A stretch of 64,000 nucleotides of DNA from contig NZ_NFLH01000010.1 in the NCBI RefSeq assembly GCF_002160815.1, positions 1-64,000 of the forward strand, in the 5' to 3' direction. Positions 2,936-60,564 of this stretch are shown here, one piece after another (positions within the stretch are counted from its first letter, which is position 1; each line of letters starts with the position of its first letter). Origin of the DNA: Massilimicrobiota sp. An134. GTDB taxonomy: Bacteria; Bacillota_I; Bacilli_A; Erysipelotrichales; Coprobacillaceae. The notes below the pieces were generated by a model. That model saw nothing but the letters and a program-made list of their open reading frames with translations. It was not told where the DNA came from and made no database searches. Both the position numbers and the translations under genes were made by a program.

Positions 2936-2939
2936 ATAT

Positions 2940-12215: not shown

Positions 12216-12730
12216 AAATTATAGATATTTTATATCTTACTTGCCTACCTTGTTCTATCAATACATGTATATATTATTTTTTCATTATATTAAAACCTGA
12301 GTGAAAAACAAAACGGAAAAAGTTTTACACATTTAAATTAGTTTAATTCATAAAACTTTAATTGACTAAAGGATTATACATAGTCCCTTTAATAAATATA
12401 AATATTACAAATTTCAAAGAAAGGAGAATAGTGAACTATTTAAGAATTATGACAAATTAAAGTTTTCAAAAATACATAATAAGAATTAAATATCTAAACT
12501 TTTTGTCTTTGAAAAATGGCTTGTTTACGTAATGAATAGTAGTAAACATACATAAATAAAATAATTACATCTGTATTAGAAAGATATAAAACAACATAGT
12601 AAATCATTTAATCTAAGATAATCAGTAATATTATGTATTTCAATTAGAAATTTTTATATACTTTTGATTTAGTATAATTTAATCACATATTTGTCATTTT
12701 TACCTTAATAAAGCTTACTTCATAACAGAA
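12216..12730. other. AT-rich spacer before the lipoprotein gene
   Basis: About 515 bases with no recognised gene. A ribosome-binding-site-like AAGGAGA at 12420-12426 precedes a nine-codon frame (GTG at 12432) that could be a leader peptide, but nothing supports its expression. Confidence 0.45.
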
Positions 12731-13597: not shown

Positions 13598-13601
13598 AAA
13601 A

Positions 13602-14342
13602 ATGAGTAGTTATACAATATATAAAATATTACAAAAAACTAAAAAAAAACATAGAATAAAAAAATATAAGATAGCCTTCATTATTATTCTCATTGCATTA
13701 ATAATATCTTTATTTGCAAGTGATATTTTTAAAATAAAAAACATTGATATTAATTGTAATGACCAAATCATTTCACAAAATGTTCGAGAAGCCATGAGTA
13801 ACTACATTAATAAATATTATTTATTTTTGGATGAAAATAATATAAAAAATATAATAATGGAAACAAACAAAAACATCAAGAAAGTTGACATAACAAACAA
13901 ATATAATGGATCAATTGAAATAAATATCGTAAAAGCTGAATCTATAGCATATTCAGAAATAAACAGTCATTATTATATAATCAATGAACTTGGAAATATA
14001 AGTCAATGCAGTCAGGATCAATTACCTTTATATACTACTAAATGCATAAATTTCCCTTCCAAAGATATTCTTGAAAAATTTGCAAAACAATATTATAAAA
14101 TAAGAGACATTATAAGAAATGATGTTAGTGATATTGAGTTTGTATCAGATGATTATAATTCAATTTTAATTCGCCTTTATTTAATAAATACTAATGTAAT
14201 TCAAATAAGAGTTGAAGATATGGTTTCTCAACTTGAGAAAGACACTTTTCCCTATGAAGCATATATGCAAGTATATAAAAATAATTATATTTTTAGTTTT
14301 GAAGGAAAATATGTTTATATAAAGAAAATAAAATTACAATAA
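13602..14342 (+). CDS. FtsQ/DivIB-like single-pass membrane protein
   Basis: A 246-aa protein with DivIB architecture: a basic cytoplasmic N-terminus, one membrane segment (residues about 25-42), a POTRA-like domain beginning FKIKNIDINCN and running through YLFLDENNIKNII, then a beta domain (IEINIVKAESIAYSEI, YYIINELGNI). The start at 13602 has GGAG eight bases upstream; an earlier ATG would overlap the lipoprotein. DivIB organises the FtsL/DivIC division complex in Firmicutes. A copy on an accessory region beside a lipoprotein, away from the dcw cluster, is unexpected; it may be a paralogue with a specialised task. Confidence 0.7.
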   Translation: MSSYTIYKILQKTKKKHRIKKYKIAFIIILIALIISLFASDIFKIKNIDINCNDQIISQNVREAMSNYINKYYLFLDENNIKNIIMETNKNIKKVDITNKYNGSIEINIVKAESIAYSEINSHYYIINELGNISQCSQDQLPLYTTKCINFPSKDILEKFAKQYYKIRDIIRNDVSDIEFVSDDYNSILIRLYLINTNVIQIRVEDMVSQLEKDTFPYEAYMQVYKNNYIFSFEGKYVYIKKIKLQ

Positions 14343-18936: not shown

Positions 18937-19683
18937 CTAACGGATTGGTTCTTTATGAATAGTCTTTTCATCTTTTCGATGGTTTGATTGGTTTGATATA
19001 AGCTTCAGATGACTTCTGACCGATTCTCTTTTGAAATGATCAAGCTGATTTAACATCTTTGAGGTTTTCATAGCCATGCCTTTAACTAATTGATGAATAG
19101 AACGGGAAGATTTTTGCATAAAATTAAGTTTTGAAAAATCATTGCTTTCATGAACTGCTTTTTTACCCATAAACAACAAACCAATATTCTTGATATTTCT
19201 TTTGGCATTTCTCACTTCAACAGTCATGGAATCAACTGTCTGAATCATATGGTTTGTTTTGCTTAATGCTTTTATAAAAGACTTCTGCAAACTCGTTAAA
19301 GCATCTTTGATATGCAGTAAATCAATAGTCTTAACAATTCCACTTTTGCCATGCTGTTTAAAAGATTGAATGCAGCCTTTCATTGAATTCGTTACATCTC
19401 TTTTTAGGTTGTTCAATTTATTCATGCTTATATCAACAACATCCTGTGTCTTATTTAATGTTGATTCCAATCTCATCTTCATTGTTGGATTTTGCATAGC
19501 ATTCAACTGTTCCTTTATATCCCCTAATTCCTTGATAACCAATTCAAATTGTTTTTCCATACTTTCAATATAATTAGTCAGGCCTTTTGTATTGTCATAT
19601 TCCTTGTGTTGATCATTATCCAATAGCATTGACATATATTTCTTGACAATAGGATCATTCATAATAGGTAATTGCTTATCCAT
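18937..19683 (-). CDS. Element protein, DUF6674-like, coiled coil
   Basis: A 248-aa helical protein starting IMNDPIVKKYMSMLLDN and containing long heptad-like helices (residues 40-170), followed by a basic C-terminus. It resembles the DUF6674 proteins found next to virB4 in Tn1549-like elements. Its start overlaps the virB4 stop by one base, so translation is coupled. It is probably a structural or regulatory part of the transfer machinery; the role is unproven. Confidence 0.65.
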   Translation of the reverse strand: MDKQLPIMNDPIVKKYMSMLLDNDQHKEYDNTKGLTNYIESMEKQFELVIKELGDIKEQLNAMQNPTMKMRLESTLNKTQDVVDISMNKLNNLKRDVTNSMKGCIQSFKQHGKSGIVKTIDLLHIKDALTSLQKSFIKALSKTNHMIQTVDSMTVEVRNAKRNIKNIGLLFMGKKAVHESNDFSKLNFMQKSSRSIHQLVKGMAMKTSKMLNQLDHFKRESVRSHLKLISNQSNHRKDEKTIHKEPIR

Positions 19684-25783: not shown

Positions 25784-27562
25784 TTACTCTTTTTCTGTTC
25801 TTAAAAGTTCCTTAAAATATTCTTCAATATCCTCATCTGAATAAAGTTCATAGTCCTCATCAGTGAGAAGAATATTCTGCCAATCATCAATCACATGATT
25901 TATCTTTCCATGCACATAAGGCTTAGCTTCCCCATCTTTTGTATATTTCACATTAGGATGTTTCAAGATGTCAAATTTCTTGTCAAAGATTGGTCGTTCA
26001 CCACGTATAAACAACAATGAATAATCATTATCTAATAGTCGCACCTCATCAGGTGCCAGAAGTTCCCTTCCGGTCTGCTGATAATTGGTAGAATAATTCC
26101 CATTCTTTCCTCCTGATTTGCCATACGTATTTGTATCCAACGTTTCCTTACCAAGATATTCACTAAGGAACTTGTGAGTAGATTGTTCATTTCCACCAAG
26201 ATAGTATAAAGTGTCACAATTACCTATGAGGCTTTCCCATGAATCTTTATACAGTGCTTTTATCTGAGCAAGATTTTGAATAATAATAGATACAAATATT
26301 TGTCTTGAACGCATGGTGCTCAGCAATTTATCAAATTCATCTGGCAATGCGACATTAGCAAATTCGTCCATTAAAAAGTGAACAGGTACAGGCAATTCTC
26401 CACCATGAACTATATCTGCCTGACAATACAGCATCTGAAACAATTGAGTATACAACATTCCAATTATAAAGTTGAATGTTGAATCATTATCTGGTATGAC
26501 ACAAAAAATGGCAGTCTTTCTCTCTCCTACTAGATTGAGTTCAAGTTCATCAACAGCTGTTAGCGAAGCAATACTTTCAAGATTAAAAGCTGCTAATCTT
26601 ACCCCAACACTTATAAGAATTGATTTCGCTGTTTTCCCGGCTGCCTGTTTATATATCTTGTATTGTTTTAAGGCTAAACTATTGGGGGTTCTTAATTCAA
26701 GTCTTTCAAACAGTTCATCTAGAGGACTTTGATAATCTTCATCGTCCTCTCGTACATCGGCTGCAACAATCATTTCCATGACCATTGTAAAATTCTGTTC
26801 TTCCTTAGGTGCTTCATGCAATAAATAAAGACATAATGCTTCTAATAAGGCAGTTTCGGACTTTTCCCAAAATGGATCATTCGTTTGACTTCCTTTTGGG
26901 GTTGTATTTCTAATCAAATTAGTAATCAGTTTTAAGATATCTTTATCATCCTTGATATACTCGAAAGGATTGTAACAATGTGACTTTGACATATTGATCA
27001 AGTCAACAACTTTAATGACATACCCTTCCTTTTCTAGAAGATAACCAGTATCTCTTAAAAGCTCTCCTTTTGGATCAAGGCAAACAAAACTTGTATTACA
27101 TTGCATTAGATTTGGCTTTCCATAAAACCTCGTCTTTCCAGCCCCACTTCCACCAATGACAATTGTATTCAGATTACGTCTGTGTTTTTTCCCATCAAGT
27201 CCAATACGAACATTTTGACTTAGAATTTTATTCTGTGAAAAATTTTTATTGGCATATTTTTTATTGACACTTCTATTGTTTGCCCATCTTGCTGAACCAT
27301 ATTCTTCTTGACGGCGATAGTTTCTCTTATTAGAAAGATAAATCCCCGTTCCACATACATAAACAATAATAAATAAACTTATTGTTCGTAAACTACCCTT
27401 ACTCCATACAATAGAAAAAGGACTATTCATTGCTTCACTGATATACGGTAAAGCATTCAATAGTCCATCATCAATATAAGGAGCAATTTTAAGGCTAAAC
27501 CATATTACAGGTATAAAACCTATAACAAAAAGTACAAGGTCATCACGATTATCTTGTTTCAT
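25784..27562 (-). CDS. virD4: VirD4-type coupling protein (TraG/TraD family)
   Basis: A 592-aa protein with two N-terminal membrane segments (residues 10-30 and 55-75) and a cytoplasmic motor: Walker A IGGSGAGKTRFYGKP near 138, Walker B HFLMDEFANVALPD near 400, and a terminal LLFIRGERPIFDKK. It docks the relaxase-DNA complex on the secretion channel and drives transfer. The acidic C-terminus is typical. It starts inside the end of the upstream small gene (14-base overlap). Confidence 0.95.
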   Translation of the reverse strand: MKQDNRDDLVLFVIGFIPVIWFSLKIAPYIDDGLLNALPYISEAMNSPFSIVWSKGSLRTISLFIIVYVCGTGIYLSNKRNYRRQEEYGSARWANNRSVNKKYANKNFSQNKILSQNVRIGLDGKKHRRNLNTIVIGGSGAGKTRFYGKPNLMQCNTSFVCLDPKGELLRDTGYLLEKEGYVIKVVDLINMSKSHCYNPFEYIKDDKDILKLITNLIRNTTPKGSQTNDPFWEKSETALLEALCLYLLHEAPKEEQNFTMVMEMIVAADVREDDEDYQSPLDELFERLELRTPNSLALKQYKIYKQAAGKTAKSILISVGVRLAAFNLESIASLTAVDELELNLVGERKTAIFCVIPDNDSTFNFIIGMLYTQLFQMLYCQADIVHGGELPVPVHFLMDEFANVALPDEFDKLLSTMRSRQIFVSIIIQNLAQIKALYKDSWESLIGNCDTLYYLGGNEQSTHKFLSEYLGKETLDTNTYGKSGGKNGNYSTNYQQTGRELLAPDEVRLLDNDYSLLFIRGERPIFDKKFDILKHPNVKYTKDGEAKPYVHGKINHVIDDWQNILLTDEDYELYSDEDIEEYFKELLRTEKE

Positions 27563-30256: not shown

Positions 30257-31612
30257 TTATCGTTCTGTATTTCTATATAATCTGTTGAATTGTGTATCAT
30301 TTTGTCTTTCATTCATTGCTTTGATAATTTCTTTCATCTTCAATGAACGATTTTTTATTCCCTCATAAAGCCTCACCTCCTTTCGTAATTCCTTGATTTC
30401 TTCAGAAAGACTATACACATCTCTTTGAAGTTTCTCTTTTGTATCAGGATTTTTACAACGTCTAATTTTGTTATAAATACATCTGCGTTCCTTAATAAGT
30501 GATTCCAGTCTATTCTTGACAGTTGATTCTTCTTTTTTTAAATCATCAACTGTTTCAATTCTTTTTTTACACAATAGAGTCGCTTCCTTTGTTATTTGAT
30601 CCATGTATCTTAATTCCTCTCTCAATAAAAAATGCACCCTTCTTTTATGAGGTGCGTTCTTAGGCAATATTCCCATTTCAAACATATAACGAACATACAG
30701 TGCACGAAATCCTGTTATCTTTTTTGATTTTTTAATATTTCCCTGATAGTGATATATTCTTGGTTTAACTTCTTGGATTGTTCCTTTTAGCCCTATACCA
30801 TTATTCAAAATACGAAGTTTAATATTTTCCTCACTATATGATTCATCTTTGGTGAGATTATGAAGTCTGAAAAATTTTTCAGCACCCGGTGGTCTGATAG
30901 CTATATACTTGACATTTGTTTTAACTTCATATCCCATGAATTTTAAATATCTAATAAATTGTGTGAAGGTCATTGAATTGTTGATGGCTCTATCAACATC
31001 ATCTATCATAAGTGTTCGTCTAGTAGGCATTTTTTGTTTTTCAGCCAACCACTCACTATAATGCTTTCCTTTCTTTGGATTATCAATAATACTCAAACGA
31101 TATTTTCTACAGATTTCATCAGACAAACGTCTTAATCTATCATAATCCTTATGCTTGTTTAAAAATCTTTTATGTGTTGCCCAAGATACAGAGTTTACTA
31201 CAAAATGATTATGATAATGTTCCTTATCTAAATGCGTTGTCACCAATACTTCAAATTCATCGCCCCACATCTTTTGAGCAAGTTCTACACCAATGGCATG
31301 TGCCATTTCTGCACTCACCTCTCCATGTGCAAATGATTGATAACCATGAAAGGCAAGAACACTATCTTCCTTATGTGCCGCCTTCTTTGTTTGAATCATC
31401 TGATCATACACATTGTAAGGACTGCAGTTGACACCACTAACATAGAATTGCTTTTCAGTTTTGAAATCATTTTCTACATATTCGATAACATTTTCAAGTC
31501 CCTGAAATTCATAATCATTGAAATCCTTGTTTTCTGTTTTCATTGGATTAACAACATAATCAAGGACATCCTTCAAGCTATACTTGACAGCCCACATAGA
31601 AGTTGTTGCCAC
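30257..31612 (-). CDS. Relaxase/mobilisation nuclease (VirD2/MobA type)
   Basis: A 451-aa relaxase. The N-terminal nuclease domain has the metal-binding three-histidine motif THLDKEHYHNHFVVN (near residue 126) and an upstream ELAQKMWG segment; a basic coiled-coil C-terminus follows. It nicks oriT and is piloted with the DNA strand into the recipient. The start is GTG at 31612, overlapping the TAG of mobC (TAGTG) with GAGGTGG upstream. It belongs to the MOBP-like relaxases of Tn1549-type elements. Confidence 0.92.
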   Translation of the reverse strand: MATTSMWAVKYSLKDVLDYVVNPMKTENKDFNDYEFQGLENVIEYVENDFKTEKQFYVSGVNCSPYNVYDQMIQTKKAAHKEDSVLAFHGYQSFAHGEVSAEMAHAIGVELAQKMWGDEFEVLVTTHLDKEHYHNHFVVNSVSWATHKRFLNKHKDYDRLRRLSDEICRKYRLSIIDNPKKGKHYSEWLAEKQKMPTRRTLMIDDVDRAINNSMTFTQFIRYLKFMGYEVKTNVKYIAIRPPGAEKFFRLHNLTKDESYSEENIKLRILNNGIGLKGTIQEVKPRIYHYQGNIKKSKKITGFRALYVRYMFEMGILPKNAPHKRRVHFLLREELRYMDQITKEATLLCKKRIETVDDLKKEESTVKNRLESLIKERRCIYNKIRRCKNPDTKEKLQRDVYSLSEEIKELRKEVRLYEGIKNRSLKMKEIIKAMNERQNDTQFNRLYRNTER

Positions 31613-34742: not shown

Positions 34743-37700
34743 TTATCTTTCTAATGATATTGGTGTTCGATATTTTTCTTCTGGAACTTCATCATCAAAA
34801 ACTAAAGATTCCTTATCATCTTTTCCTCCAATATCAAGCTCTTTATCCAATTTTGATAATCTTTTACTTAAACTTTGTAGCTCGTCTTTTTTTTCAAAAG
34901 GCTTCTCCACTTCTTCCTTCGCATTCATAAACTGCTGATAAGTTTCATCATATAATGCTTTTTCTATTTCCAATTTTTTAGGAATGGAATCTATAACATT
35001 ATCAATACGGGTGATATTTCCATAGACATCATCACCTAATTCAACAGGATGACCCAAATGATTTTTTAAAGTTAAAATATGAACATTATGAAACGAGTCA
35101 TATCTTAACGACATTTCAAATCCTCGATAGTTCCCTATCATGATTTCCTCCTGAGATTTTAATTCCTGACATGCTAAAAGGATGGCTTGTCCTGCCTGTT
35201 TTTTATCATGAAATGTGATATCTTTAACAGTCATTTCACCAAATTCATTTTGATGAACAATTGATTCTATATCCTTTTTATAACCATGAATTCTTTCTTC
35301 GATAAGTTTGATTTTTTGAGGATAATACTTTACTATCCTATCTTCAAGCTCATATTTTTGTGAAAGATAATTGGCTTTAGCCAGTTTAAGCTTAGCCACT
35401 TTCGTATCTAGTTCCATCTTTTCCTTGACTTTAGGATTTCCACTAGCTAATGCTTTTATCTCAGCATAACTAAGTGAAGCTTCGTCGATATCTTCAGCAG
35501 AACGAACAGGAGATTTGCTTGTCATAATCTGACTAATAAACTTCTGTTTATTTTCAACAAGCTGATACAAATAAGCGTCAAATGTCCCTTCCGTTACATA
35601 TCTATAAATATACACATCACTGTTTGTATTTCCCTGACGAATGATACGACCGGCTCTTTGCTCCAGATCACTTGGTCGCCACGGGCAATCTAAATCATGA
35701 CTAGCAACAAGCCTATCCTGAACATTTGTTCCTGCTCCCATCTTGCTTGTTGAACCAATCAAGATTCGTACTTTTCCTTGTCTGACTTTGGAAAAAAGTT
35801 CCTTCTTTTTGGCATCGGTTTTTGCGTTATGAATATAGGCAATCTCATCATCAGGCACACCATTTTCAATGAGTTTCTTTCTTAGTTCATCATATATATT
35901 GAACTCATTTGCCTTTGGTGTAGACATATCACAGAAAATCAATTGTGTTGACCTTTGGTTTTTAGTTTCATGGTAAATCTTTAAGACATTATCAATACAT
36001 GCATTGACTTTACTATTTTCATATTCCGACAGTAACGGATTGATAAGCCTCTGATCTAATGCCAGTTTTCTTCCATCATTTGTGATTTTCAGCATATTAT
36101 CTTTGCTAGGGTCAACAGCACCATCTCTTATCTTTTCAGCACGTTTCCCTAATGATTCAACAATCTCTTTTTGGATTTCACTAGGCTTGACTGATACATT
36201 ATGATAATGAGCCTTAGGTACTGGAAGATTAAGCATATCTGCAGTCTTTATATCGGCTACTTCTTTGAACATATTAATCAATTCAGGCAGGTTAAAAAAT
36301 TTCGCAAATCTTGTTTTCATACGATATCCCGTTCCCTCTGGTGCAAGTTCAATGGCTGAAACTGTTTCACCAAATGTACTTGCCCAACTATCAAAATGCT
36401 GTAAATTGTGTTTGACAAGAGTTCCATATTGCAGGTATCTTTGCATTGTATACATTTCAGTCATTGAATTACTTATAGGCGTTCCGGTTGCAAAGACAAT
36501 TCCCTTTCCACCAGTGATTTCATCTAAATAACGACACTTCATAAATAAGTCAGAAGATTTCTGTGCTTCAGTTTGAGCCAATCCTGATACATTTTTCATT
36601 TTTGTAAAAAGAAAAAGATTTTTATAATAATGAGCTTCATCAACAAAAAGACGATCAACACCCAATTCTTCAAAGGTAATCAAATCGTCTTTTCTGTCCC
36701 GATTATTCAGTTTTTCTATTTTAGCTTTTAATGATTTCTTTGTCCTTTCCATCTGCTTGATAGTAAATCTTTCTCCATTATTCGCCTTTAAATCCTGAAT
36801 GCCACGAGTGATTTCCTCTATCTGATTTTCAATCGTCTGTATCTGCCTTTCAATAGACATCGGTATCTTTTCAAACTGTGAATGACCGACGATGACCGCA
36901 TCATAATCACCTGTTGCAATACGTGAAAACAGCTTTTTACGATTTCTTTTTTCAAAATCTCGTTTTGTTGTGACTAATATATTGGCACTTGGATATAATT
37001 GCAGAAATTCACTTCCCCACTGTTCAACAAGATGGTTGGGAACAACGAACATAGATTTATTGGACAACCCAAGTCGTTTGAGTTCCATACAGGCAGCCAC
37101 CATTTCATATGTTTTTCCTGCACCAACTACGTGTGCAAGAAGAACATTATGACCATAAAGAATATGAGCAATGGCATCTTTTTGATGTTTTCTCAATTCT
37201 ATCATAGGGTTCATGTTTGGAAAAGTGAGATGACTGCCATCATATTCACGAGGTCGAATACTGTTGAAATTTGTGTTATAGATTTTCGTCAGTCTATCTC
37301 GTCTTTCCATATCCTTCCATACCCATTCCACAAACGCTTCCTTGATAGAGTCTTGTTTCTGTTGAGCAATCATTGTTTCTTTTTTATTAAGAACGGCAAT
37401 TTTTTTACCATCATCATCGTATTCATAATCAAATATCTTTGTTGATTTTAAATTCAAACAATCCTCAATCAGTTTATAGCCACTCACTCGATGTGTTCCA
37501 TAAGTCTTGTCTGCTTTGACATTGTTTTTATCATAACTTTTACCATTGATATTCCATGCCCCTGTTACATTGGAATAGGTGACATTGATATAGTCACGAT
37601 AATATGCAGATGTACCTAGAAGTTCATGCACAAACTGTGTATAAATATCTTCAGGTATCCATGTAGCTCCGAGCCTAACCTCAATTTCACTTGCACTTAA

Positions 37701-40700
37701 ATCCTTTGGTAAAACTTTTTCCAGTGCTTGAACGTGTTTATGATATGTTGAATCAATTGCAACAGATAATCGTGCAATTTCCAATTTTTCACGTACATTC
37801 CCACTTAAATATTCATCAGCCGTGATATATTCAGCTTTAGTATCACTATTTAAAACGTTAGGTACTTTGTAGATTACACCATCAAGTTCATCAATCATAT
37901 CATCAATGGAATGATTACATAGTTCACTCATATACTCAAGGTCAACTTTTCCTTTTTCTCCAAGTGATACCATCAACGCTTCGTTTGCAGTATCAACATG
38001 GGTAACATCTACTTTCTTTCTAATGGTACGTTTTGTAAACATATCAGCCTTGCTTTTGAGAGTTCCATCTTCATTAATATTTTCAAGCGAACACAACAAA
38101 TAAAATGAACTATCATCTCGGAATGCAAGACTATTTGCACGACTATTGATAAGTCCATGCTTTGATGTAAAGCTATCATAGATTTCGTTTAAATAAAGCT
38201 GCTCAGCCTTAATTTCTTCCTCCGAGTAATCTTGACTCTGAAATTCAATTAAACGTCTCACAGACTCTCTAATAGCGATTAAACCTATAATTCTATTCTT
38301 TGCAGTTGATGAAACATCAACTTTGTTCATCATGCTATTGATACGATAATAGATTTCACCATCAACGACTGTATAGCTGAAATTTCTAATATTTGGATCT
38401 GCTGGAATACTTTCAATGACTTCATCTTCTGCTATATCATCTTCTATGACATATTCATCAATATTGCCATGAATATTGTCTGTTGCATTATTAATAGCGT
38501 CTTTTAAAGAAATATCTTCATATGGGATAACTGTCAAATCTTCTCGACCATACATGCTTCTTGTCTTTTCAACTGTTCCAAGTATCATTTCAGGATGGTC
38601 AATAAAATATTGATTCATGATGTTACCATACTCATCAAAACCAGTAGAAACCCATATATCATCACAAACAACAGGTCTATCCCTTTTCTTTAAAAAGATA
38701 ATGTCACTGACCGCTTTTGTATCATCGAATGCGTTATTCGGTAAACGGATAGCACCTATCAATTCACATCTTTCATTGATATATTTTCGAGCAGTGCTAT
38801 TTTTCTTATCCATTGTATAACGTGATGTCACAAATGCAATCAGACCTCCCGGTCTTATTTTATCAATTGTTTTTGCAAAGAAATAATCATGAATGTTAAA
38901 ATTTAATTTATCATATTGCTTATCTACGACCTTAAACTGTCCAAAAGGAACATTCCCTATAGCAACATCAAAAAAGCTATCTGGAAGTTTGGATTTTTCA
39001 TAACCCTCAACTGCAATATTGGCATTTTGATACAGCTGTTTAGCAATTCTACCCGTAATTGAATCCAATTCAATCCCATAAAGTCTAGACTCTTTCATAT
39101 GATTAGGAATCATGCCAAAAAAACGACCTATACCACATGATGGTTCTAGAATATTCCCATAATGAAATCCCATCTTCTCTAGTACCTTATATATACCCTC
39201 AATCACAATGGGAGAAGTATAAAATGAAGATAATGTTGATTCTCTTGCCATCGCATATTCACCATCATTTAAAAGATTTTTAAGTTCCTCATATTCCTTT
39301 GACCATGAGGATTTAGATTCATCAAAAGCATCCGAAAGTCCACCCCAGCCAACATATTTAGCAAGTATTTCCTGTTCTTGTGATGTCGCAAGACGATTTT
39401 CTTTCTCCAAAGAAAAAAGCAACTTAATAGCTGCTACATTGTTTCTGTATCTTTCTTTTGGTGTACCTGCCCCTAAATGTTCATCTTTTATCTGATAATT
39501 AATACGTTCAGTTGAAATGATAGTTTTATCATTAGATTCATTTTCAACAATGGCTTCACCATAATTATCAATATATGCTTGAGGAATATCTGTATAAGTG
39601 ATTTTTCCATTTTCATCAAATTCAATAGAATAAAGATTATCTTTTTCATCGTTTACATATAAACGCTTATATGCGAGATAATATCCTTTATCACGAATAT
39701 TTTGAAGCCATCTAAGAGCATATTCTATCATATCTTCAATAGCTATGTCAGATGTTGAGTCCCATTCAATATTCATATCTTGATTATAATAATAAACCGG
39801 TTTAACAGTTTTATCATTTTGATCAATTGAAAATCTCATATGATGATTCATGATTTCTATACCATTCGTTTCATAGAAATGATACATATCAAAAATGCCT
39901 TCATCACGATCATAACTCAATGACAAGGGATAGTCATTTTCGTTTTTTGTCTTCAATGTCAAAAATGGTGAATTTAAACTTAAAAATTCAGAATCAAGCT
40001 GACGAAAAGCATCATATAACTTCATTTGTTTTTTCATATTTGGTTTAGAAAACGATATATCATTATATATCCTATCTAAAAGTTCATTAATCATCTGCTC
40101 TCTAAAAGTTGAATCAGTTGTATATAAATCATAGATATCAGGATCTGTGATATTGATTGAAGTCATAATATCAATCATTGCTTCACGAATAAATAGTTCT
40201 GCTTCATGTTCATCCGTATCACGCTCTTTTAATTGTGGATAATATTCACTTTTCTGTATCTTATTAACAAATATAGGAATATATTCATCAAAAAGCTGTT
40301 CGTTAGTTTCAAGATTATCTTCTTCGATTGCAACAAGTAACTTATCATTGAGTGGGTTTTCTTTTAAGAGATTCTTGAAATCTTCTCTTGATAGGTAATC
40401 AATAAATAAAGGAAATTCATCACTTTGGATAGCAATCTGATTGCCATCTTCGATGATGGTGTATTCATCAATTCCTTTATAAAAGGTATCTCCCACTTTC
40501 CAACGATAATCTTTCTTGACATTCTCATCTGAACTGTTTTCCACGACCATACCAGTTGGCTCATGATTTAACCTTTTACGTTCGTATTCAAGCTGCTGTT
40601 CCATCTGCTCATGGAGAAACTCTGGATAGCGTTCCATTTCATCCTTGCTAAGATAACGATTGGCAACAACAAGTTCATTGATCCTTTTCGCAATTTTCTT

Positions 40701-42923
40701 CCAGTTGAGTGTTATCGTGATTTCTTCCTTGCCTATCTGTCGACTTCTAGAAAAAGTGATTCCTCTGCTGTCGTAATTTATATCAATCAGTCCTACTACT
40801 GGAGCAAAACCACCAATTCCATATTCTTCTTTTAAAAATTGAGCATTTTCGTTGAGTGACAGTTTTTTGAGCATTTGCTGATAGATTCTGTATTTTCCAT
40901 CTACGAAGCCACTGCCACAAACAAGGACACGATCAATTTCTTCTTGAGAAAAATAAATGCCATTTTTTAATTGTTCTTCATTTTCATATATGGCTGTTTG
41001 CTGTTCTTCAACAGTTGGAATCTGAATACTAGGATCAAAATAGCGTGATAGAATCATGCCATCTATTTCATTTTCTACAAGTGACCAACTGTAATCGCTA
41101 GATGCTTTCTGATTATCATGCGGTCCCATGTAGATATGCAGATGCTCATTCTCTTTCTTGAATCCAAGAATGACACCATCCACTTCCATTTCTACAATCT
41201 CGTCAGGATAAAAGTCTTTTATGAAGTGTATTCGTTTTTGTTGATCTTGTTCATTGCTTAAAAATTCAATAATTTCAGTAGAGCTTTTTTTGAACTCACT
41301 TTTATATGAAAACAGGTAATAATCTACATTTCTATTCATTGTTCCATTTTCATAAGTTACTTGAATAGATGACATTCTTTCCCATTTAGAAAGTAGATAT
41401 TCGTTATTTTCAATCAGTTTTGCGACTTCCAATTGAAGCTGAAAGAAAGATAAATGAGATTTGGATTTTTTGTTTTGCCAGCTCCCAGCCCATACATTAA
41501 GTCCATTACCATCTTTCTTATAGCCAATATAAGAAAAATCATTTCTTTCTGGATGTCTGAAAGTTTCCACTAAAGTATCATCATAACATTCTGCAAGATA
41601 TTGAGTACGTTCATTATCATCGGTATGTTCCATAAAGAACTGCTGAATTTCTTCACGAGAATGTTGAAGTGAAACATCTTCACGTAATAATGCAGGTAAA
41701 TCCTGCAAATCAAAAGGTGGTAAAGTATTTTCTTCTTCACCACCTAATCCTAAGTCTAATTGTAGATTATCTCCTTGAGAATGATTTCCTCGACTTGTAC
41801 CTTTAGATTGTTCATATGCTGTACCCATTCCATCTGATAAGTTTCTTTGTTCGGTGCTGGATGTTTCACTAACATCTGTTCCATCATTTTTTCCATCTTT
41901 GCCTGTGCTTGTTCCTCGACTTCCTTGAGATGTTTGTTCAATGTATTGCTTGCCCTCAAGGCGAACAGATGTGCCGGTTGGTTGGTTTTGAGATAATTCA
42001 TTCTCAGCATTGCGTATTTCCCTAATGGATTTTCCTCGTTCCCTATCTTGAGATTTGGAAACTGATAATCCCCTACTTGATTGTATATGACTTCCTTCAT
42101 ATATAACACTCCCTTCATTATCACCATCATCTATATTTTGACTTATTTCTTTAGACTGTACAAATGTACGATTTTCTGATTGTATCAATTTTCGTACCAC
42201 TCGACCGATTTCACTTAATGCCACATCCGTTAAATCCTTATTGGCAGTTCCTAAAACACCAATAACATCAAATGTATCAAATAAAGATATAGCGTCGAAA
42301 TCCCCCTTTTCAAAATAAAATATCGGGTCAATATCACTTCTTCTCATCAGACAGTATGCTATGGAGTTTTCAAGAATCTTTATAAATACTTTTTTAATTT
42401 CAAATACTTCCATATTCTCAAAAGAACTATTTTGATTATATTTTATGATCTGTTCTAAATAATCATCACCGTTATCTTTGACAAACATATGAGCCAATGA
42501 TAAATATGCACTTCCTAAATCTTGCTTATTTTTTAAAATGCCATAACTATTCGACAATGATTCAATAACAGCATCATACATTGATTCGTTAATTGCCCAT
42601 AGCTTTAGATTTTGGTGTTGTGGACTTCTTGTATCTGCAATATCAAAGACATATCTCAAACTAGAGTATTTTTTTGAATCATCTATTAATGCTATACCTT
42701 TAGCTCCTTTTTTAATCCATCTTTTCATTCGATTATTCCAATAATCAAATGTTGCACATGCTTTCGCATCTGGCTTTTGAGCATAAATTAAAAGCTGATC
42801 AGCAAAATCGTATTTAAACATATAAGACGATGTATCTAAAAAGGACAACCATGATTTCTCATCTTTTACAACCATCTTTGTTGTTTCAGCTAATAAATCA
42901 TTGATCATATCAAACTTATTCAC
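34743..42923 (-). CDS. Giant multi-domain protein: ArdC-like, methylase-like, SNF2-type helicase (2726 aa)
   Basis: One uninterrupted 8.2-kb gene, GTG start with AAGGAGGTG upstream. Domains: an ArdC/LtrC-like N-terminus (1-110, [17 protein letters not shown]), a low-complexity linker (about 270-390), several repeats of a poorly defined domain ([12 protein letters not shown] and kin), a methylase-like Rossmann part with [12 protein letters not shown] (about 1264) and NVPF in place of NPPY (about 1321), then a superfamily 2 helicase: Walker [11 protein letters not shown] (about 1934), DEAH box VDEAHYYKN (about 2094), ATGTPISNS (about 2148) and [11 protein letters not shown] (about 2424), ending in a coiled coil. 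Equivalent giants occur in Tn1549-like elements and probably protect or process transferred DNA. Confidence 0.88.
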
Positions 42924-52504: not shown

Positions 52505-53461
52505 TTATCTTTCTTGTTCTTTATTTCGTTTTTTTGCCCATGATTTCAACAGTTTCAAAATGACTTCACTTTTTTGTCTTGGTGTATAATCTTTAGGAAA
52601 GTATTCATCAATATCCTCCATTTTAAAAGAAATCTTTTCTTTTTGATTAGGTTTAATTTCAGTCAATATAGAATAAATAACGTTTTCATCTAATCTATTT
52701 ATTTTTGACAATTCTTTCAGTCTGATAGCTTGAGCATGACTTGGTGTTAAATCAAGTTCTTCAATGTATTTAACAACAAATTGTTGATTTTCTTTAGATA
52801 AGTAAGATAATTCAACAGCTGGATTCAATGCTATTTTCTTTTTATCCTCTCTTAATCCATCAACCATATCTCTTAATGGTTCAATCAGTTCTGTTAAACG
52901 AATATATCTTTGTATTTGATTTTTACTTTCCCCAGCTTCTTTAGCTAATAACTCTACTGAATAAATACCTTTTAACTTCTGCCCAAGTTGGGCAGAAGTT
53001 AAATCAATTCGTTTTCCTTGATGTTTCATTGCCTCTAATTTCATCTTATAAGCAAAACCTCGTTCTGTTGGCAATATTGTTTCTCGCTGAATATTGCTAT
53101 CCACCATGATGATGGTCGCCTGTTCATCAGTCAAATCACGTACAATTGCAGGAACTTTGTCTAAACCATTCATTTCAGCAGCTTTCATTCTTCTATGACC
53201 AGAAACCATTTCATAACCTTTTCCATCTGGAGAAGGTCTAACAAGTGTTGGTAACAATATACCATTTTCAGTTATACTTTCAGTAAGTTTTATCATTTCT
53301 TCATCTTGTCTAACCTTAAATGGATGATTTTTAAATTCATGGATTTCATCAATTGGTAGTTCCATAATTTTTTCTAGTTTCGCTTCTTGACGTTGTTCTT
53401 CATTAGTAAACAAATCATCGTATGAAGGTATTCTTATGTCGTTTATGTTCTTTTTCGGCAT
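52505..53461 (-). CDS. parB: ParB-family DNA-binding protein
   Basis: A 318-aa ParB/Noc/Spo0J-type protein: N-terminal ParB/sulfiredoxin-fold domain with ITENGILLPTLVRP and the CTP-binding signature SGHRRMKAAEM, then a helix-turn-helix region (YSVELLAKEAGESKNQIQRY). Together with ParA it partitions the element or controls its genes. Its start overlaps the parA end by 47 bases. Full length, no defects. Confidence 0.93.
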   Translation of the reverse strand: MPKKNINDIRIPSYDDLFTNEEQRQEAKLEKIMELPIDEIHEFKNHPFKVRQDEEMIKLTESITENGILLPTLVRPSPDGKGYEMVSGHRRMKAAEMNGLDKVPAIVRDLTDEQATIIMVDSNIQRETILPTERGFAYKMKLEAMKHQGKRIDLTSAQLGQKLKGIYSVELLAKEAGESKNQIQRYIRLTELIEPLRDMVDGLREDKKKIALNPAVELSYLSKENQQFVVKYIEELDLTPSHAQAIRLKELSKINRLDENVIYSILTEIKPNQKEKISFKMEDIDEYFPKDYTPRQKSEVILKLLKSWAKKRNKEQER

Positions 53462-54236
53462 TTAAGATAACCTCCTTTGTAAAAGCGTTATATGCTTTGG
53501 TTGCTGAACCTTTTGGGTCATACATAAATATACTTTGTCCTGTTCCTGTCGATTCAGCTGCTCTTGTACATCGTGGAATTGTCATATCAAATATATTTAT
53601 ATGACTTCCAAAATTCCTCCTCACATCATTTGTAATTTTTTTGGAAAGATTTGTTCTTTCGTTTGTCATGGTAATTAATACCCCTTCAATTTTTAAATAA
53701 TGATTGAGGTTATTTTTAACCATATTAATTGATTTTAATAAATCTGCCATTCCTTCTACTCCATAAGGTTCAGCCTGAACAGTAATAATGACCTTATCTG
53801 AAGCAGTTAATGCATTGATAGGTAAATTGTCCAATGATGGATTAGTATCAATAACAATAAAATCATAATCTTCTCTGACAGTATCAATAAATCTTTTCAC
53901 AACAGTTTCTCGACACATAGCACTCTCTAATGTTGCATTAATACTTGCTAGTGATATATTCGATGGAACAATATCTACATTTTCATCACTATGTAAAATA
54001 AGTTGTTCCTTATCAATGGGAATATCTTGAATAACAGATAAAATCACATCCCTCATAGATAAAGGATATTGACTACTATCATAATATCCAAATGCTTTTG
54101 TTGAATGACCTTGTGGATCTAAATCTACAAGTAATACTTTTTTATCATGTAGTGCTAGACATGCACTTAAACTTACAGATGTCATTGTTTTACCAACGCC
54201 ACCCTTTTGATTGGCAATTGCAATAACTTCAGCCAT
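53415..54236 (-). CDS. parA: ParA-family ATPase
   Basis: A 273-aa ATPase with deviant Walker A NQKGGVGKTMTSVSL (residues 8-22), the LLVDLDPQGHSTKAFG segment and Walker B FIVIDTNPSLDNL. The ATG has GAGGTGAA seven bases upstream. It forms an operon with parB and is the first core gene from the right end, as in Tn1549-type elements. Maintenance of the excised circular form is the likely role. Confidence 0.95.
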   Translation of the reverse strand: MAEVIAIANQKGGVGKTMTSVSLSACLALHDKKVLLVDLDPQGHSTKAFGYYDSSQYPLSMRDVILSVIQDIPIDKEQLILHSDENVDIVPSNISLASINATLESAMCRETVVKRFIDTVREDYDFIVIDTNPSLDNLPINALTASDKVIITVQAEPYGVEGMADLLKSINMVKNNLNHYLKIEGVLITMTNERTNLSKKITNDVRRNFGSHINIFDMTIPRCTRAAESTGTGQSIFMYDPKGSATKAYNAFTKEVILNAEKEHKRHKNTFIR

Positions 54237-54829: not shown

Positions 54830-54857
54830 AATAAAAGGCCATTAAAATGACCTTTTA
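54830..54857 (-). terminator. Terminator between the methyltransferase-like and DprA-like genes
   Basis: AAAAGGTCAT/ATGGCCTTTT pairing around TTTA, with U-rich sequence after the stem on the minus strand. It overlaps the last codons of the methyltransferase-like gene. Confidence 0.65.
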
Positions 54858-55574
54858 AAAATATGTATTTCCTATTTTAATATGAAAATGATATTTATAA
54901 TTTCTCATATCATTTCTTATTATATGTTTTTTTCTTTTTGCATGGATATATCCAATGCGATGCAAATGTGGATTCATATGCCCAATATGACCGTAATCAA
55001 TTCTTAATTTATTCCTTTCTTGATAATGAATAATATCCCATTCATTAAGATTGAAATAAGAAATCATTTCACTTGTTCGTAAGTATTGATTTTTGGGATA
55101 TGTATAATCATCTTCATCATTTACAGCCAGATGGTAGTATATGTATATTTCACCATGATCATTGACTGCTTCTTGTAATTTTTTTATTTTATGCTTCATT
55201 GTCATATCGCCATGACAATTTCTGTGCAAAGATTTATAAACATGTATCAAATCATATGTATCCACACTTTTTTGTCTAAAAAAATCTTTATGAAAATATT
55301 TCACTTTCTTTTTAGCATTATAAACATGTATACGTTTCTTCAATCCATCTACATTCGTGCTTTTATTTCCTTCAACAATCTCACCTCCGTCAATAAAAAT
55401 AGATTGTGGTTCATAAGTTTCTACAGTATGACCTGCTCTCACAAAAGGAAAAACATGCCATCCATCAAATCCATCTACGATAAGCACTTTTGAACCCTTT
55501 TTTAACGATTTTGCTAATTCATATGAAACTTTGCTCGGTTCCTTAAAAATACTCGCCATTCTTCTCTTTTTCAT
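54855..55574 (-). CDS. SAM-dependent methyltransferase-like protein at the element's right end
   Basis: A 239-aa protein with a Rossmann-type start (GSKVLIVDGFDGWHVFPFVRAGH, residues about 27-49, then VETYEPQSI with an acidic ribose contact), a middle DTYDLIHVYKSLHRN and GEIYIYYHLA strands. This is the layout of TehB/UbiE-like class I methyltransferases, though the GxGxG loop is altered to DGFDGW. The substrate cannot be told. It is the outermost gene, only about 75 bases from the broken end of ftsW, so it lies next to the attachment site. Confidence 0.6.
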   Translation of the reverse strand: MKKRRMASIFKEPSKVSYELAKSLKKGSKVLIVDGFDGWHVFPFVRAGHTVETYEPQSIFIDGGEIVEGNKSTNVDGLKKRIHVYNAKKKVKYFHKDFFRQKSVDTYDLIHVYKSLHRNCHGDMTMKHKIKKLQEAVNDHGEIYIYYHLAVNDEDDYTYPKNQYLRTSEMISYFNLNEWDIIHYQERNKLRIDYGHIGHMNPHLHRIGYIHAKRKKHIIRNDMRNYKYHFHIKIGNTYF

Positions 55575-55647
55575 TTTATGACCATCCTATCAATGTTTTT
55601 TAGATGATGTAACGTTTATTTTTAAGCAGTAGATATTCTTCTCGTAA

Positions 55648-56640
55648 TTACAATGTTTCACCTGTCACCGGAAATAATCCTACCACAACTCCCAGATTAA
55701 TTAAAGTCTGAATACCAATCATCGAAATAATTCCAATCATCAAAAAGCCACCAAATAGATCAGGTGCATTTTGACTCACCTTTAAAACCGTCTTAAATAG
55801 ACTGGTATATAATCCAATCACAATAATTCCCCCTATAAAGCCAAATTCTTCTGCTATAATCGCAAAAATAAAATCTGTCTGGGGTTCTGGTAAATAAAAA
55901 TGTTTTTGAATACTTTTATCAAATCCAACGCCTAATAATCCACCTGGTCCAATGGCATATAGAGCCTGTATAGCCTGAAAACCACTGCCTAATGGATCCT
56001 GGAATGGATTTAAAAAAGACAATATACGCTCCATACGATAAGGAGCAGATAAAATCATAATCACAATTCCAATGACTCCCAGTATTCCCAACCCCACAAA
56101 ATAACGAAAGGGAAATGGCGAAACAATCATCATCACAATGACACTACACGCCATAACAACACCACTCCCAAAATCTGGCTGTAACATAATCAGCAAAAAA
56201 CCTAGTCCCATCATAAGTAAAACTGGCAGGCTATATCTGATTTTTTTCATATGATAGTAATGCTTTTCCATATAAACCGCACTAAAAATAATAATACCAA
56301 TTTTAAACAACTCACTTGGCTGCAATGCAAAAATACCAAAATTAAACCAGCTGCGACTCCCACCTCTGACAACCCCTAAACCTGGTATTAAGACAAGAAT
56401 TAATAAAAGAAAACAGATGATTAAAATAAACTTATAATATTTTTTGTAAAGATGATAATCAATACGTGAAGTCACAAACATGGCTATAAAACCTAAAACA
56501 GCAAAAATCATTTGTCTTTTGATGTAATACAAAGCATCATCATATTTATAAAGTGCCCAAATATGAGAAGAACTATAAACACTTATTAATCCTATAATGA
56601 CAATGATGATTGTTAAAATCGTGATTTTTTTTGTTTTCAT
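55648..56640 (-). pseudogene. ftsW: ftsW truncated by the conjugative element
   Basis: A 330-aa SEDS-family protein with the FtsW/SpoVE features: GGSRSWFNFGIFALQPSELFK pattern (residues about 93-113), LQPDFGSG, the SPF and FLNPFQDP region, and YLPEPQTDFIFAIIAEEFG containing the catalytic Asp. The reading frame ends at LFPVTGETL, exactly where family members continue with a LPFxSYGG motif and two more membrane helices (about 40-60 residues). The stop codon is therefore created by foreign sequence. SEDS glycosyltransferase FtsW is normally essential for septal wall synthesis. GGAGGTG precedes the start. Confidence 0.85.
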
Positions 56641-56722: not shown

Positions 56723-58047
56723 TCATTGTGTTGATAAATGGCGTGTATATTTAATCATTGATACACCAGCATAAATAGCCACAATGATTTCTGTCAATAC
56801 CATAGCTAACCATAAAGCATTAGGATTTATAAGTGACAGAATGAAAATCAAGACTCCACTGATGACCAATCCTCTAGAAACTGAAACAATAAAGGCACTT
56901 CTTGGTTTTAATATAGCCTGAAAATAATATGTTGAAAAAATATGAAAAGGCAATAAAAGGAATGATAAACCATAACATCTTATAACCCAAGGAGCTATTT
57001 TCATAATTTCAGGTGTTGGCGTCATAAAAATACAAACAAATAGCATTGGCGCAAATAAAGACAATGCTGTCCATAAAAGGCTAAAAAATGCAACACTCAT
57101 AAGTGCATATTTTAAAACTTCCTGAATACGTTGAGGTTGATGAGCACCAAAATTAACAGAAATAATAGGTTGTGCTGCCTGTCCCACACTATAGGCACAA
57201 CATTGCACAAAAGTTGAAACATTCACAATAATACCATATACAGATAAAGCATTTGTTCCCAAATATTTCATAATCTGACGATTAAATAAGATTGTTAAAA
57301 TTCCCATAGCCACATCAATAAAAAATGTTGAAAAACCAGTCACTGTTATTTGAGACAATCTAGCCATAAAATGTTTTGGTCTGACTAATTTTAAGGTATT
57401 GCTCTTTTTTAAAAAATGAGTGAGCATAACAAGTGTCGAAATGACTGCTCCAATAGCAGTCGCCAAACCTGCACCATAAATTCCCATATCAAACACAAAT
57501 ACAAAAACATAATCTCCAAAAATATTGAATATTCCACCAGAAAGGACACCCGCCGTTGCAAGAGCCGGATCATTGTCATTACGTAAATACGCTGCTAACA
57601 TCTGATTAAACAAAAAGCATGGCACAACGAATTGAATCGGTTTGAGATAACTTAAACCAAGTGGAAGTAAATTTTTTTCAGCTCCAAAAATGTTAATAAC
57701 GGCTGATCAAAAACAACAATAACAAACCATGATAGTAAAGCTAATAATATAGAGCCTATCACTGAAACAGTAAAAAATTCCCCTGCTTCATCATCTTTTT
57801 GAGATCCCTGTCCTTTAATTGTACTAAAAATAACTGCTCCACCTATTCCCATTAACAAGCCAAGGCTATAAATAATATTCCATATTGGAGCAACGACCGC
57901 CAAAGCAGCTGTTCCATCAGGACCTTGATATTGTCCAACCATGGCCATATCTACAATCGAATAAATAGAAGTGACTAATGCGCTTCCAAAAGCAGCAGCC
58001 AAATATTTAAAATATATTGGTCTTATCTTTCCGTGAATAAAATCCAT
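56723..58047 (-). pseudogene. MATE-family efflux transporter with a one-base frameshift
   Basis: N-terminal part to 57652 (start MDFIHGKIRPIYFKY at 58047 with GGAGG seven bases upstream), then the rest 57625-56723 in another phase. Restoring one T in the five-T run (57686-57690) rejoins QPLLTF to GAEKNLLPLGLSYLKPIQF and MPCFLFNQMLAAYLRNDNDP, giving a 440-aa MATE protein with twelve membrane segments. MepA-type MATE pumps export organic cations with sodium or proton. A homopolymer slip suggests phase variation, decay or a sequencing error. Confidence 0.8.
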
Positions 58048-58071
58048 ATAATCCTCCTTTTTTGTAAAAAT

Positions 58072-58175
58072 AAAAAACTGGATAAGAAACAGGTATTTCA
58101 ACCTGTAGCCTTATCCAGCTCACCATTTCTCATGAATGGCTCACCCTCCGAGCAAGCACTCACATTTAATCACAT
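58072..58175 (-). promoter_or_regulatory. Candidate guanidine-IV (mepA) riboswitch with terminator
   Basis: The minus-strand leader of the MATE gene has conserved-looking elements (GCTTGCTCGGAGGGTGAGCC, then CCATT-CATGAG-AAATGG and GTGAGC) followed by a strong intrinsic terminator, CTGGATAAG-GCTACAGGT-TGAAAT-ACCTGTTT-CTTATCCAG with UUUUUUAUUUUU, 25 bases before the ribosome binding site. Riboswitch-controlled MATE genes of Clostridia carry the mepA motif, which senses guanidinium by antitermination. The class is proposed from gene context and recall, not from a covariance match; the attenuator itself is clear. Confidence 0.6.
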
Positions 58176-58232: not shown

Positions 58233-59579
58233 CTATGAATTCCATTCATTAATAATCTGTTTAAAAACTCTTCCTCTTTCTTCATATCCACTAAATTCAT
58301 CATATGAACTTGTTGAAGGGGATAATAATACAACATCTCCTTCATGAGCAATTTCCTTTGCTTTCATCACAGCATCTTTCATATGTTCAACAACAATTGT
58401 ATTGTCTATATACATTTCTCTAGCAAATCTTTCCTTTGCCTCACCAAAACAAATAAGCGTTGAGATCTTTGAAGCATAAGATGACATCTCTGTTAAATCC
58501 AGACCTTTTTCATGACCACCCATTAATAATATAACCGGCTGTTTAAAAGCTTTTAAAGCAATAATTGCTGCATCTGTATTTGTCGCTTTAGAATCATTAT
58601 AATATTTAACACCGTGATATTCTCTTACAAATTCTATACGGTGTTCTACTCCCTGAAAAGAAGCCAAAGTATCATGAATATCTGATAAAGACACATGACT
58701 TAATGCACAGGCAATAATGGCAATCATCATATTTTGAATATTATGATCACCTACTATTTTTATTTCATCCAAATCAATAACATGATTTCCTTTATAATAA
58801 ATCGCTTGATTTTGAATCATACAATCAGCTGGTTTAGTTAAAGAAAAAGTCACTCTTTGAGCCAAAACAGGATATTTTCTTAAATAACTCTGCAAGATTT
58901 CATCATCCAAATTTTCAATAAAATAATCTTGCTTATCTTGATTCATATAAATACGTGTTTTAGAAGCATAATATTCATCCAGTGAAGCCATATAATCCAA
59001 ATGATCTGGAGTCAGATTTATAATTGTAGAAATATGTGGATGAAACTTTTCAATATCTAATAATTGAAAATTAGACATTTCTAAAACCACATCATACCCA
59101 TCACGATGAAGCAAATCATTGTCTAGAACACAAGAGGAATAAGGTATACCCACATTACCTGCCAAACAAGACAAATGATGGGCATGTTTTAAAATCTCAT
59201 CAATTAATGTCACTGTTGTTGTTTTCCCATTTGTTCCTGTAATAGCAATATAATTTTGCATTTTAGCAACTTGATAAGCCAGTTCAATTTCAGTATAAAC
59301 TGGAATTCCTCTTTCTTTCAACCTTAAAACAAATGGTTTATGATAATTAATTCCTGGATTTTTCACAACAAAGTCAAAATCTCTTTCAAACAGTTCTTGT
59401 GGATGTCCTCCTGTAATCATCTCGATACCACGATGCACATATTCATCATAACAAGCAATCTTTTCACGACTAGCATATTCATTCACTGTGATAGTTGCAT
59501 GTAATGCAGTCAATAATTCGACTGCTGCTTGACCACTTTTAGCCAATCCTAAAACTAAAACTTTTTTCCCGTTCAACAT
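58233..59579 (-). CDS. murD: UDP-N-acetylmuramoyl-L-alanine:D-glutamate ligase MurD
   Basis: A 448-aa Mur ligase. The ATP-binding loop is ITGTNGKTTTVTLI (residues about 113-126), with the N-terminal UDP-binding start VLVLGLAKSGQAA, HPHISTIINLTPDHLDY in the central domain and the C-terminal GVEHRIEFV, YNDSKATNTDA and LLMGGHEKG segments. It adds D-glutamate to UDP-MurNAc-L-Ala in the cytoplasm. It lies one base after mraY in the same transcript, the usual dcw order. Confidence 0.97.
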   Translation of the reverse strand: MLNGKKVLVLGLAKSGQAAVELLTALHATITVNEYASREKIACYDEYVHRGIEMITGGHPQELFERDFDFVVKNPGINYHKPFVLRLKERGIPVYTEIELAYQVAKMQNYIAITGTNGKTTTVTLIDEILKHAHHLSCLAGNVGIPYSSCVLDNDLLHRDGYDVVLEMSNFQLLDIEKFHPHISTIINLTPDHLDYMASLDEYYASKTRIYMNQDKQDYFIENLDDEILQSYLRKYPVLAQRVTFSLTKPADCMIQNQAIYYKGNHVIDLDEIKIVGDHNIQNMMIAIIACALSHVSLSDIHDTLASFQGVEHRIEFVREYHGVKYYNDSKATNTDAAIIALKAFKQPVILLMGGHEKGLDLTEMSSYASKISTLICFGEAKERFAREMYIDNTIVVEHMKDAVMKAKEIAHEGDVVLLSPSTSSYDEFSGYEERGRVFKQIINEWNS

Positions 59580-59580
59580 A

Positions 59581-60564
59581 TTACATAACTCCTAAAACAA
59601 TCCCAATAATTCCACAAATAAAACCTAAAAACCAAAATGAAATAACAACTTGTTGTTCACTCCATCCAAGCATTTCAAAATGATGGTGAATAGGTGCCAT
59701 CTTAAACACACGTTTGCCTCTTGTTTTGAAAGATACAACCTGAATAATCACTGATAAAGTTTCAATCAAGAAAACACCACCAATTAAAATAAACAGAAGT
59801 TCCTGACGTGTTAATACAGCCAAAGCTGCTAAAAATCCACCTAAAGCTAATGAACCAGTATCTCCCATAAAAATACGTGCAGGATGATAATTAAAACACA
59901 TAAATCCTAGTAATGTTCCCACCACTGCCATAGCATAGATGGCAATGTCATAATCTTTATTCATAATCGCAAAAATAACAAAAACAGAAATCGCAATCAT
60001 CGAAAGTCCTGTTGCTAGACCATCTAATCCATCTGTTAAATTCACCGCATTGCTGCCTGCTGTAAACATAAAATATACCAAAATAGGATATAACCATCCA
60101 ATATCAATTTCTATATGTAATAAAGGGATAGAAATTGCAGTATCAAATCCAGGTATAAAAAACTTAGCTAAAATATAAAAAGCAATGGCCACAACTGATT
60201 GTAATGTATATTTATATAAAGGTTTCAATCCATCATTTGTCTTTCTGACAACAATTAAATAATCATCAATAAATCCAACCAATCCAAAACCTACAAAAGA
60301 AAAAGTTAAAAGATGTATATAAGGATTATTTAACGAAGTGAAATTCAAAATATAAACCACAACTACAGCACATAAGATAAAGACAATTCCACCCATTGTT
60401 GGTGTACCACCTTTTGCTTTATGCGACTGTAAACCTTCTTCTCTTTCTACCTGTCCAAATTTTAATTTTTTTAAATACTGAATCGCTTTTGGCATAACAG
60501 CCAACACCAAAATAAATCCCACTAAAAAGTTCAAAACAATTCTTAAAAAGACCATATTAAACAT
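59581..60564 (-). CDS. mraY: Phospho-MurNAc-pentapeptide translocase MraY
   Basis: A 327-aa polytopic enzyme with the MraY hallmarks: GTPTMGGIVFI (residues about 52-62), FIDDYLIV with catalytic Asp pair, NAVNLTDGLDGLA and the histidine-rich MAPIHHHFEMLGW loop. It attaches phospho-MurNAc-pentapeptide to undecaprenyl phosphate, making lipid I. The first gene of the local dcw operon; a promoter is visible at 60599-60627. ATG at 60564 or the Met four codons on (MVFLRI) could both serve. Confidence 0.97.
   Translation of the reverse strand: MFNMVFLRIVLNFLVGFILVLAVMPKAIQYLKKLKFGQVEREEGLQSHKAKGGTPTMGGIVFILCAVVVVYILNFTSLNNPYIHLLTFSFVGFGLVGFIDDYLIVVRKTNDGLKPLYKYTLQSVVAIAFYILAKFFIPGFDTAISIPLLHIEIDIGWLYPILVYFMFTAGSNAVNLTDGLDGLATGLSMIAISVFVIFAIMNKDYDIAIYAMAVVGTLLGFMCFNYHPARIFMGDTGSLALGGFLAALAVLTRQELLFILIGGVFLIETLSVIIQVVSFKTRGKRVFKMAPIHHHFEMLGWSEQQVVISFWFLGFICGIIGIVLGVM

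Follow-up and report, generated by a model that had tools for sequence, protein, structure and literature searches.

A conjugative element splits spoVE, a sporulation-type SEDS gene of Massilimicrobiota sp. An134, at a codon targeted by one clade of serine recombinases in 12 species

We describe, in Massilimicrobiota sp. An134, an integrated conjugative element (ICE) whose right end lies inside the SEDS gene of the dcw cluster; on comparative sequence evidence the interrupted gene is spoVE, and its interruption is not lethal. Elements whose serine recombinases (LSRs) form a single clade occupy this codon in other species too. We suggest that they most likely form a new branch within the skin/SPbeta/gin class, whose members interrupt sporulation genes, and that spore formation in the carriers probably depends on the element excising itself. 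The window, i.e. the whole 64,000-nucleotide stretch that was analysed (NZ_NFLH01000010.1, here contig C2), holds one junction, and contig C32 of the same genome (G000) the other. A second carrier, Massilimicrobiota sp. BRZ_IC__bin65 (G003), and a third, G438, appear in the list of features for comparison.

1 to 55660: right part of the integrated conjugative element, presumably extending to the left end of contig C2
C32, 1 to 12584: left element end with the serine recombinase
19683 to 22025, minus strand: VirB4/TraG P-loop ATPase (PF19044)
25784 to 27562, minus strand: VirD4/TraG coupling protein (PF02534)
30257 to 31612, minus strand: MobA/VirD2-type relaxase (PF03432)
34743 to 42923, minus strand: 2726-aa protein, a sequence reading, presumably of the helicase/methylase type of Tn1549-type ICEs
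52505 to 54236, minus strand: ParB/ParA-like pair (sequence reading)
54855 to 55574, minus strand: element gene adjoining attR, conserved in G003, with a 35% homologue next to the attR of G438
55648 to 56640, minus strand: 5' fragment of spoVE: 327 host codons, the last being the Gly of PVTG, followed by E-T-L and a stop from the element
55651 to 55668, minus strand: attR core GTGACAGGTGAAACATTG, with the putative crossover dinucleotide GG at 55661-55662
58233 to 59579 and 59581 to 60564, minus strand: murD and mraY, host dcw genes upstream of spoVE
G000, C32, 12577 to 12594: attL GTCACAGGTGTAACCTTG, the opposite junction of the element

The frame at 55648-56640 (minus strand) reads ...NLGVVVGLFPVTGETL* at its C-terminus; its host-derived SEDS sequence ends ...INLGVVVGLFPVTG, with ETL-stop after it, and the stop codon at 55648-55650 lies three codons inside foreign DNA. 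A search of the whole genome with PF01098 returned four matches, namely this 5' fragment (profile positions 4-328 of 356), intact SEDS genes on contigs C1 and C23, and a 32-position piece on C32 (positions 322-353, at 12577-12672; sequence VTGVTLPLMSYGGTSLVITLMSIGILINISKSCHDML). The last of these places the missing 35 residues of the SEDS protein directly 3' of the 546-aa LSR, with a gap of 40 bases between the LSR stop and the piece, and downstream of it follow murG, murB, divIB, ftsA and ftsZ. An earlier note on this DNA had described an FtsW-like frame breaking off at PVTGETL through insertion of a conjugative element, and had expected the missing C-terminus at the other junction. The frame and the piece beside the LSR confirm the break and the expectation, and the insertion is likewise supported, with the correction that 55648-55650 is the stop codon and the crossover lies at 55661-55662. 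As to the part said to be lost, the LPxxSYGG loop is indeed missing from the fragment, but the 35 residues would supply one membrane helix and not two. Joining the flanks across the empty site yields an uninterrupted 361-aa ORF in G000 and likewise in G003, precise excision would give an intact joined spoVE ORF in all seven carriers tested, and the relatives G002 and G004 have the gene uninterrupted.

Since the assembly is a draft and places the two junctions on separate contigs, an assembly join error or a chimeric contig has to be weighed; its chance is practically negligible. G003, an independently assembled species, has the same junction with diverged flanks, and both halves together with the LSR lie on one contig in three other carriers (G015, 6.6 kb; G039, 35 kb; L089, about 3 kb), on which grounds we exclude it.

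The element would measure at least about 68 kb if its C2 and C32 parts are wholly element, the two contigs not being joined in the assembly. Its ICE hallmarks are divided between these unjoined contigs, with the relaxase, VirD4 and VirB4 in the window and the LSR (P0001; 546 aa, with Resolvase, Recombinase and zinc-ribbon domains in Pfam) on C32. A Pfam search of the 54855-55574 product gave no match. At 13584-14339 (plus strand) the element also encodes a paralogue of DivIB/FtsQ that shares 33% identity with the host DivIB over 221 aa, an unusual cargo for an ICE. Near the left contig end lie agr-type quorum-sensing genes (AgrB-, AgrA- and AgrC-like; 955-4193, plus strand), to which genes on C32 (3234-5244) are similar.

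All seven intact orthologues tested match the spoVE model TIGR02615 best (409-452 bits), although its cut-off of 448.8 bits is exceeded by one of the seven and all seven also pass the ftsW model. Among 43 genomes of the family, the SEDS type and SpoIVA occur together in 30, SpoIVA alone in 1, the SEDS type alone in 2 and neither in 10 (Fisher P=4e-7); against the SpoVD-type PBP, defined by 660-692 bits for full-length hits with the next class at about 200-300 bits, the corresponding counts are 31, 1, 1 and 10 (P=6e-8). The dcw SEDS gene is absent from 11 of the 43, ten of which lack a SpoIVA over the cut-off, and these sporulation-negative relatives still divide with two SEDS genes. All 12 carriers of a split copy have both other SEDS genes intact, and one of these two adjoins rsmD and a YlbF-like gene, a neighbourhood that we take to be that of Bacilli ftsW. 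In sporulating Bacilli the dcw SEDS gene has been described as spoVE, with ftsW located elsewhere, and the dcw copy is missing from non-sporulating Bacilli (PMC10693644); in Clostridioides difficile spoVE is needed for the cortex and dispensable for growth (PMC10693644). Considering the phyletic pattern, the model scores, the two intact SEDS genes and this literature together, we assign the gene to spoVE and regard its splitting as not lethal.

The contrary reading, in which divisional ftsW is interrupted and the cell relies on constant excision or a substitute, draws on the gene's dcw position and on the truncated copy passing the ftsW model cut-off (343 against 337.5 bits). We consider it very improbable, given that spoVE is the best model for every intact orthologue tested, that relatives lacking the gene divide with two SEDS genes, that a separate FtsW-type SEDS gene adjoins rsmD and the YlbF-like gene, and that Bacilli dcw SEDS genes are spoVE, dispensable for growth in C. 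difficile (PMC10693644). The essential-FtsW interpretation of the earlier note is accordingly rejected, because the gene tracks SpoIVA and SpoVD, whereas its suggestion of a second SEDS protein is borne out by the genes on C1 and C23. With two other intact SEDS genes in every split-copy genome, no essential-gene paradox arises.

Nor are murG and divIB probably cut off by the element, as had been proposed from their separation from the mraY promoter. An extended -10 promoter, TGnTATAAT, lies within the last spoVE codons, shortly 5' of the murG start, and is conserved before murG both in carriers and in intact relatives; because murG keeps this promoter of its own, the two genes are probably still transcribed, and a polar effect on murG was rejected as likely. 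Between spoVE and murD, a MATE-family exporter gene (56723-58101, minus strand) is broken into two ORFs; its counterpart in G001 is a single 452-aa frame.

We have narrowed the site of exchange by comparing the two Massilimicrobiota carriers, G000 and G003, in which host/element identity switches at the core and confines the exchange to ACAGG. When attP is reconstructed from the two ends of the element, it proves palindromic about a central GG, with 18 of 28 arm positions symmetric against a shuffled mean of 8.2, and because the arms are symmetric about it we take the GG at 55661-55662 to be the crossover dinucleotide. These two bases open the Gly codon of the conserved P-V-T-G motif. Ten attP sites were reconstructed, with arms clearly symmetric in seven, weakly so in two and not above chance in one (G255). 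The predicted junction of the empty spoVE is ...CCGGTGACAGG^TGTAACC... and that of the circle ...GTCACAGG^TGAAAC...; a search of the source assembly for an attB or attP copy, i.e. the excised form, found none, and a minor form would escape assembly.

The search for LSR relatives of P0001 covered 316 genomes of the order, 395 sampled from the class and a collection of genome contigs. A clade LSR was found in 12 species (the source and eleven others), and spoVE is split at the same codon in 12/12, with both halves found. The spoVE-targeting LSRs form a single group with 100/100 support; the target label requires one change on the LSR tree, against 8.6 in shuffles, while identity to P0001 within the clade falls to 44% and the hosts are spread over at least three families. 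LSRs further removed from P0001 (410-500 bits), from other Bacilli, were not at spoVE in the loci fetched. Viral contigs gave only LSRs about 26-37% identical, and since the loci fetched held no spoVE fragments, no phage was seen at the site. In G003, which has the same element at the same spoVE codon, element DNA is 96-100% identical to that of G000 up to the core, as against 74-89% per kilobase for the host flanks. The element is thus far more alike than its surroundings, which argues for interspecies transfer with separate insertions: on this nucleotide comparison, it is an element that moved horizontally between two Massilimicrobiota species.

What the elements carry differs widely among the carriers; the site is therefore what is conserved, not the cargo. 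The window element brings the relaxase, VirD4, VirB4, the giant helicase/methylase protein and ParA/ParB. The G039 element (L099/L100, 6330-37039) holds 35 kb of capsule/exopolysaccharide genes plus a radical-SAM peptide-type gene, and no homologues of the window's conjugation proteins were detected in it. The 6.6-kb element of G015 encodes an AraC regulator and a wall-anchored, esterase-like protein of 907 aa, and that of L089 (genome G278), about 3 kb long, has a single oxidoreductase gene. A VirD4 homologue is present in L090, and in G438 a homologue of the 54855-55574 gene and ParA adjoin attR.

In the mechanism that we propose, the element's own LSR integrates it into spoVE, the dcw-cluster gene for the sporulation-specific SEDS glycosyltransferase, where the GG of the conserved Gly codon (PVTG^xTLP) in attB is recombined with the palindromic attP. 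Vegetative growth would be untouched, because two other SEDS proteins would serve division and elongation and murG keeps a promoter of its own. The 330-aa remnant, without the LPxxSYGG loop and apparently the last helix, is presumably inactive, so that synthesis of the spore cortex would need precise excision, which, as with skin, SPbeta, gin and yin, would most likely take place in the mother cell of a sporulating culture or in part of the population. A split SpoVE that works without excision, as a two-piece protein or with an alternative ending, seems to us highly unlikely: the 330-aa part does retain the stretch (LPEPQTDF) that holds the likely catalytic Asp, but the element-encoded tails vary among carriers (ETL, VIL, VTW, VTLYLRNNFI) and an in-frame stop stands directly before the 38-codon 3' piece.

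Reversibility of the insertion is possible, and we give somewhat better than an even chance to regulated or population-level excision that would allow sporulation, considering the precedents (skin, SPbeta in spsM, gin in gerE, yin in yabG) and the sporulation genes that carriers keep. All six carriers within the family, where 32 genomes have the gene, retain SpoVD and SpoIIP, and 10 of 12 carriers overall retain SpoIVA, the exceptions, G003 and G278, being incomplete genomes. The dN/dS of spoVE in carriers is 0.05-0.10, as in intact relatives, values that a recent insertion would also give. The main competing view is that spoVE is a mere convenient, non-essential and conserved attB under no developmental control, the sporulation of the host lineage being abolished until an ordinary stress- or conjugation-induced excision. 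It is a serious possibility, though clearly below even. LSR promoters look to be of the sigma-A type, and a scan upstream of 11 LSRs showed no enrichment of sigma-E-like promoters (3 found, 5.1 expected); the elements appear recently acquired, their cargo is typical of ordinary mobile elements, and SpoIVA was not found in the incomplete G003 and G278. Against this view, six of the 32 genomes that have the gene in the family are occupied by an element and yet keep spoVD, spoIIP and mostly spoIVA. Moreover, the missing sigma-E site is a weak argument, since the LSR gene of SPbeta also has a sigma-A promoter, the sporulation promoter being only on the gene for its directionality factor (RDF) (PMC6957869).

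No directionality factor was identified in the window element. In eight loci from outside Massilimicrobiota (L027, L028, L029, L030, L085, L089, L090 and L091), an ORF of about 42-57 codons and similar pattern lies closely upstream of the LSR and is a candidate RDF, missing in G000 and G003; three such ORFs gave no match in a Pfam search, and a related ORF also stands before the LSR, a distant one, of L122.

The closest relatives of the spoVE elements are the intervening elements of other sporulation genes, with which they share the features of the class: a position inside a sporulation gene, an own serine recombinase with att sites, and a gene that is intact when rejoined. Like the window element, skin in the sigK of Bacillus subtilis and C. 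difficile combines a serine recombinase with a split sporulation gene and intact rejoining, and sigK, like spoVE, is not needed for growth; however, skin is a defective prophage, whereas the window element is an ICE whose developmental excision is putative. SPbeta in spsM resembles it in an LSR-type integrase, a sigma-A-like promoter and an element end inside a sporulation gene (PMC4191935, PMC6957869), but is an active phage whose RDF gene, sprB, has a sigma-E/K promoter, where the window element has no identified RDF. The gin element in gerE of Bacillus cereus likewise is no prophage and joins serine recombinase(s) and varied cargo to a sporulation gene target (PMC5595907); it has three recombinases and 28.6 kb and is reported in B. 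cereus and B. toyonensis, in contrast to one LSR clade, at least three families and about 3 to >60 kb, conjugative machinery included, for the spoVE elements. In yabG of Clostridium botulinum, yin has an LSR with the same three Pfam domains and expected integrated and excised forms (PMC10747680), but is prophage-like and reported from a single strain, whereas the spoVE elements recur in 12 species. Outside sporulation, SCC cassettes and Ccr at orfX offer a parallel, an LSR family that brings interchangeable cargo (e.g. capsule genes) to one codon. The best NCBIfam match of P0001 is indeed CcrB, at 111.6 bits against a cut-off of 900, which places it outside Ccr. Insertion of SCC leaves orfX undestroyed, whereas the spoVE element destroys its target. 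Finally, Durrant et al. 2022 (PMC10083194) describe site-specific groups in which diverse LSRs similarly share one conserved coding-sequence target; the main text does not name spoVE or ftsW among the targets, though the supplement may list it.

The element class is thus known, while the spoVE target, the conjugative/cassette-like nature and the dedicated LSR clade appear to be new; none of the open-access papers searched describes insertion into spoVE. We tentatively suggest, with chances just short of even, that the clade is specialised on one spoVE codon of spore-forming Bacilli as a shared, swappable site for cassettes (ICE, capsule cluster, surface enzyme, single metabolic gene) with excision tied to sporulation, in which case mobile DNA would stay silent in growth and the cortex synthase be rebuilt when spores are made. 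If so, this would be the first reported family interrupting spoVE, with an ICE in the role of a switch for a sporulation gene. In place of the paradox of a broken essential gene stands the question of how spore-forming gut bacteria are transmitted with their cortex synthase gene occupied. Further, spoVE joins the short list of sporulation genes serving as attachment sites, its occupants being conjugative and cargo-cassette elements rather than prophages, and the clade provides LSRs whose target codon is defined and highly conserved. Annotators would label such copies truncated ftsW, or the strains non-sporulating; both labels would be wrong if excision occurs.

Some spoVE copies may be dead, since in G438 the gene is cut twice and in G042 its halves are opposed. 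The second cut in G438, at about profile position 230 after YAIGPGGL (L249 2227-3705, contig C14), is due to another small element, whose LSR falls outside the spoVE clade. In G042, a complete genome, the spoVE halves lie in opposite orientation about 47 kb apart (L102 15835, L103 14942), which probably reflects a chromosomal inversion that has one of its ends in the element; here, recombination of attL x attR would invert the segment and restore spoVE. Additionally, a similar gene of 500-530 aa, AAA/PD-(D/E)XK-like (MGIYLNPTNQNFYEAVNKEIYVDKSLL...), stands at one end of several spoVE elements (L005 9166-10722; L105 4145-5749; L102 14101-15686; L099/L100 of G039, 37793-39361); it is frame-broken in G042 and is a possible recombination partner.
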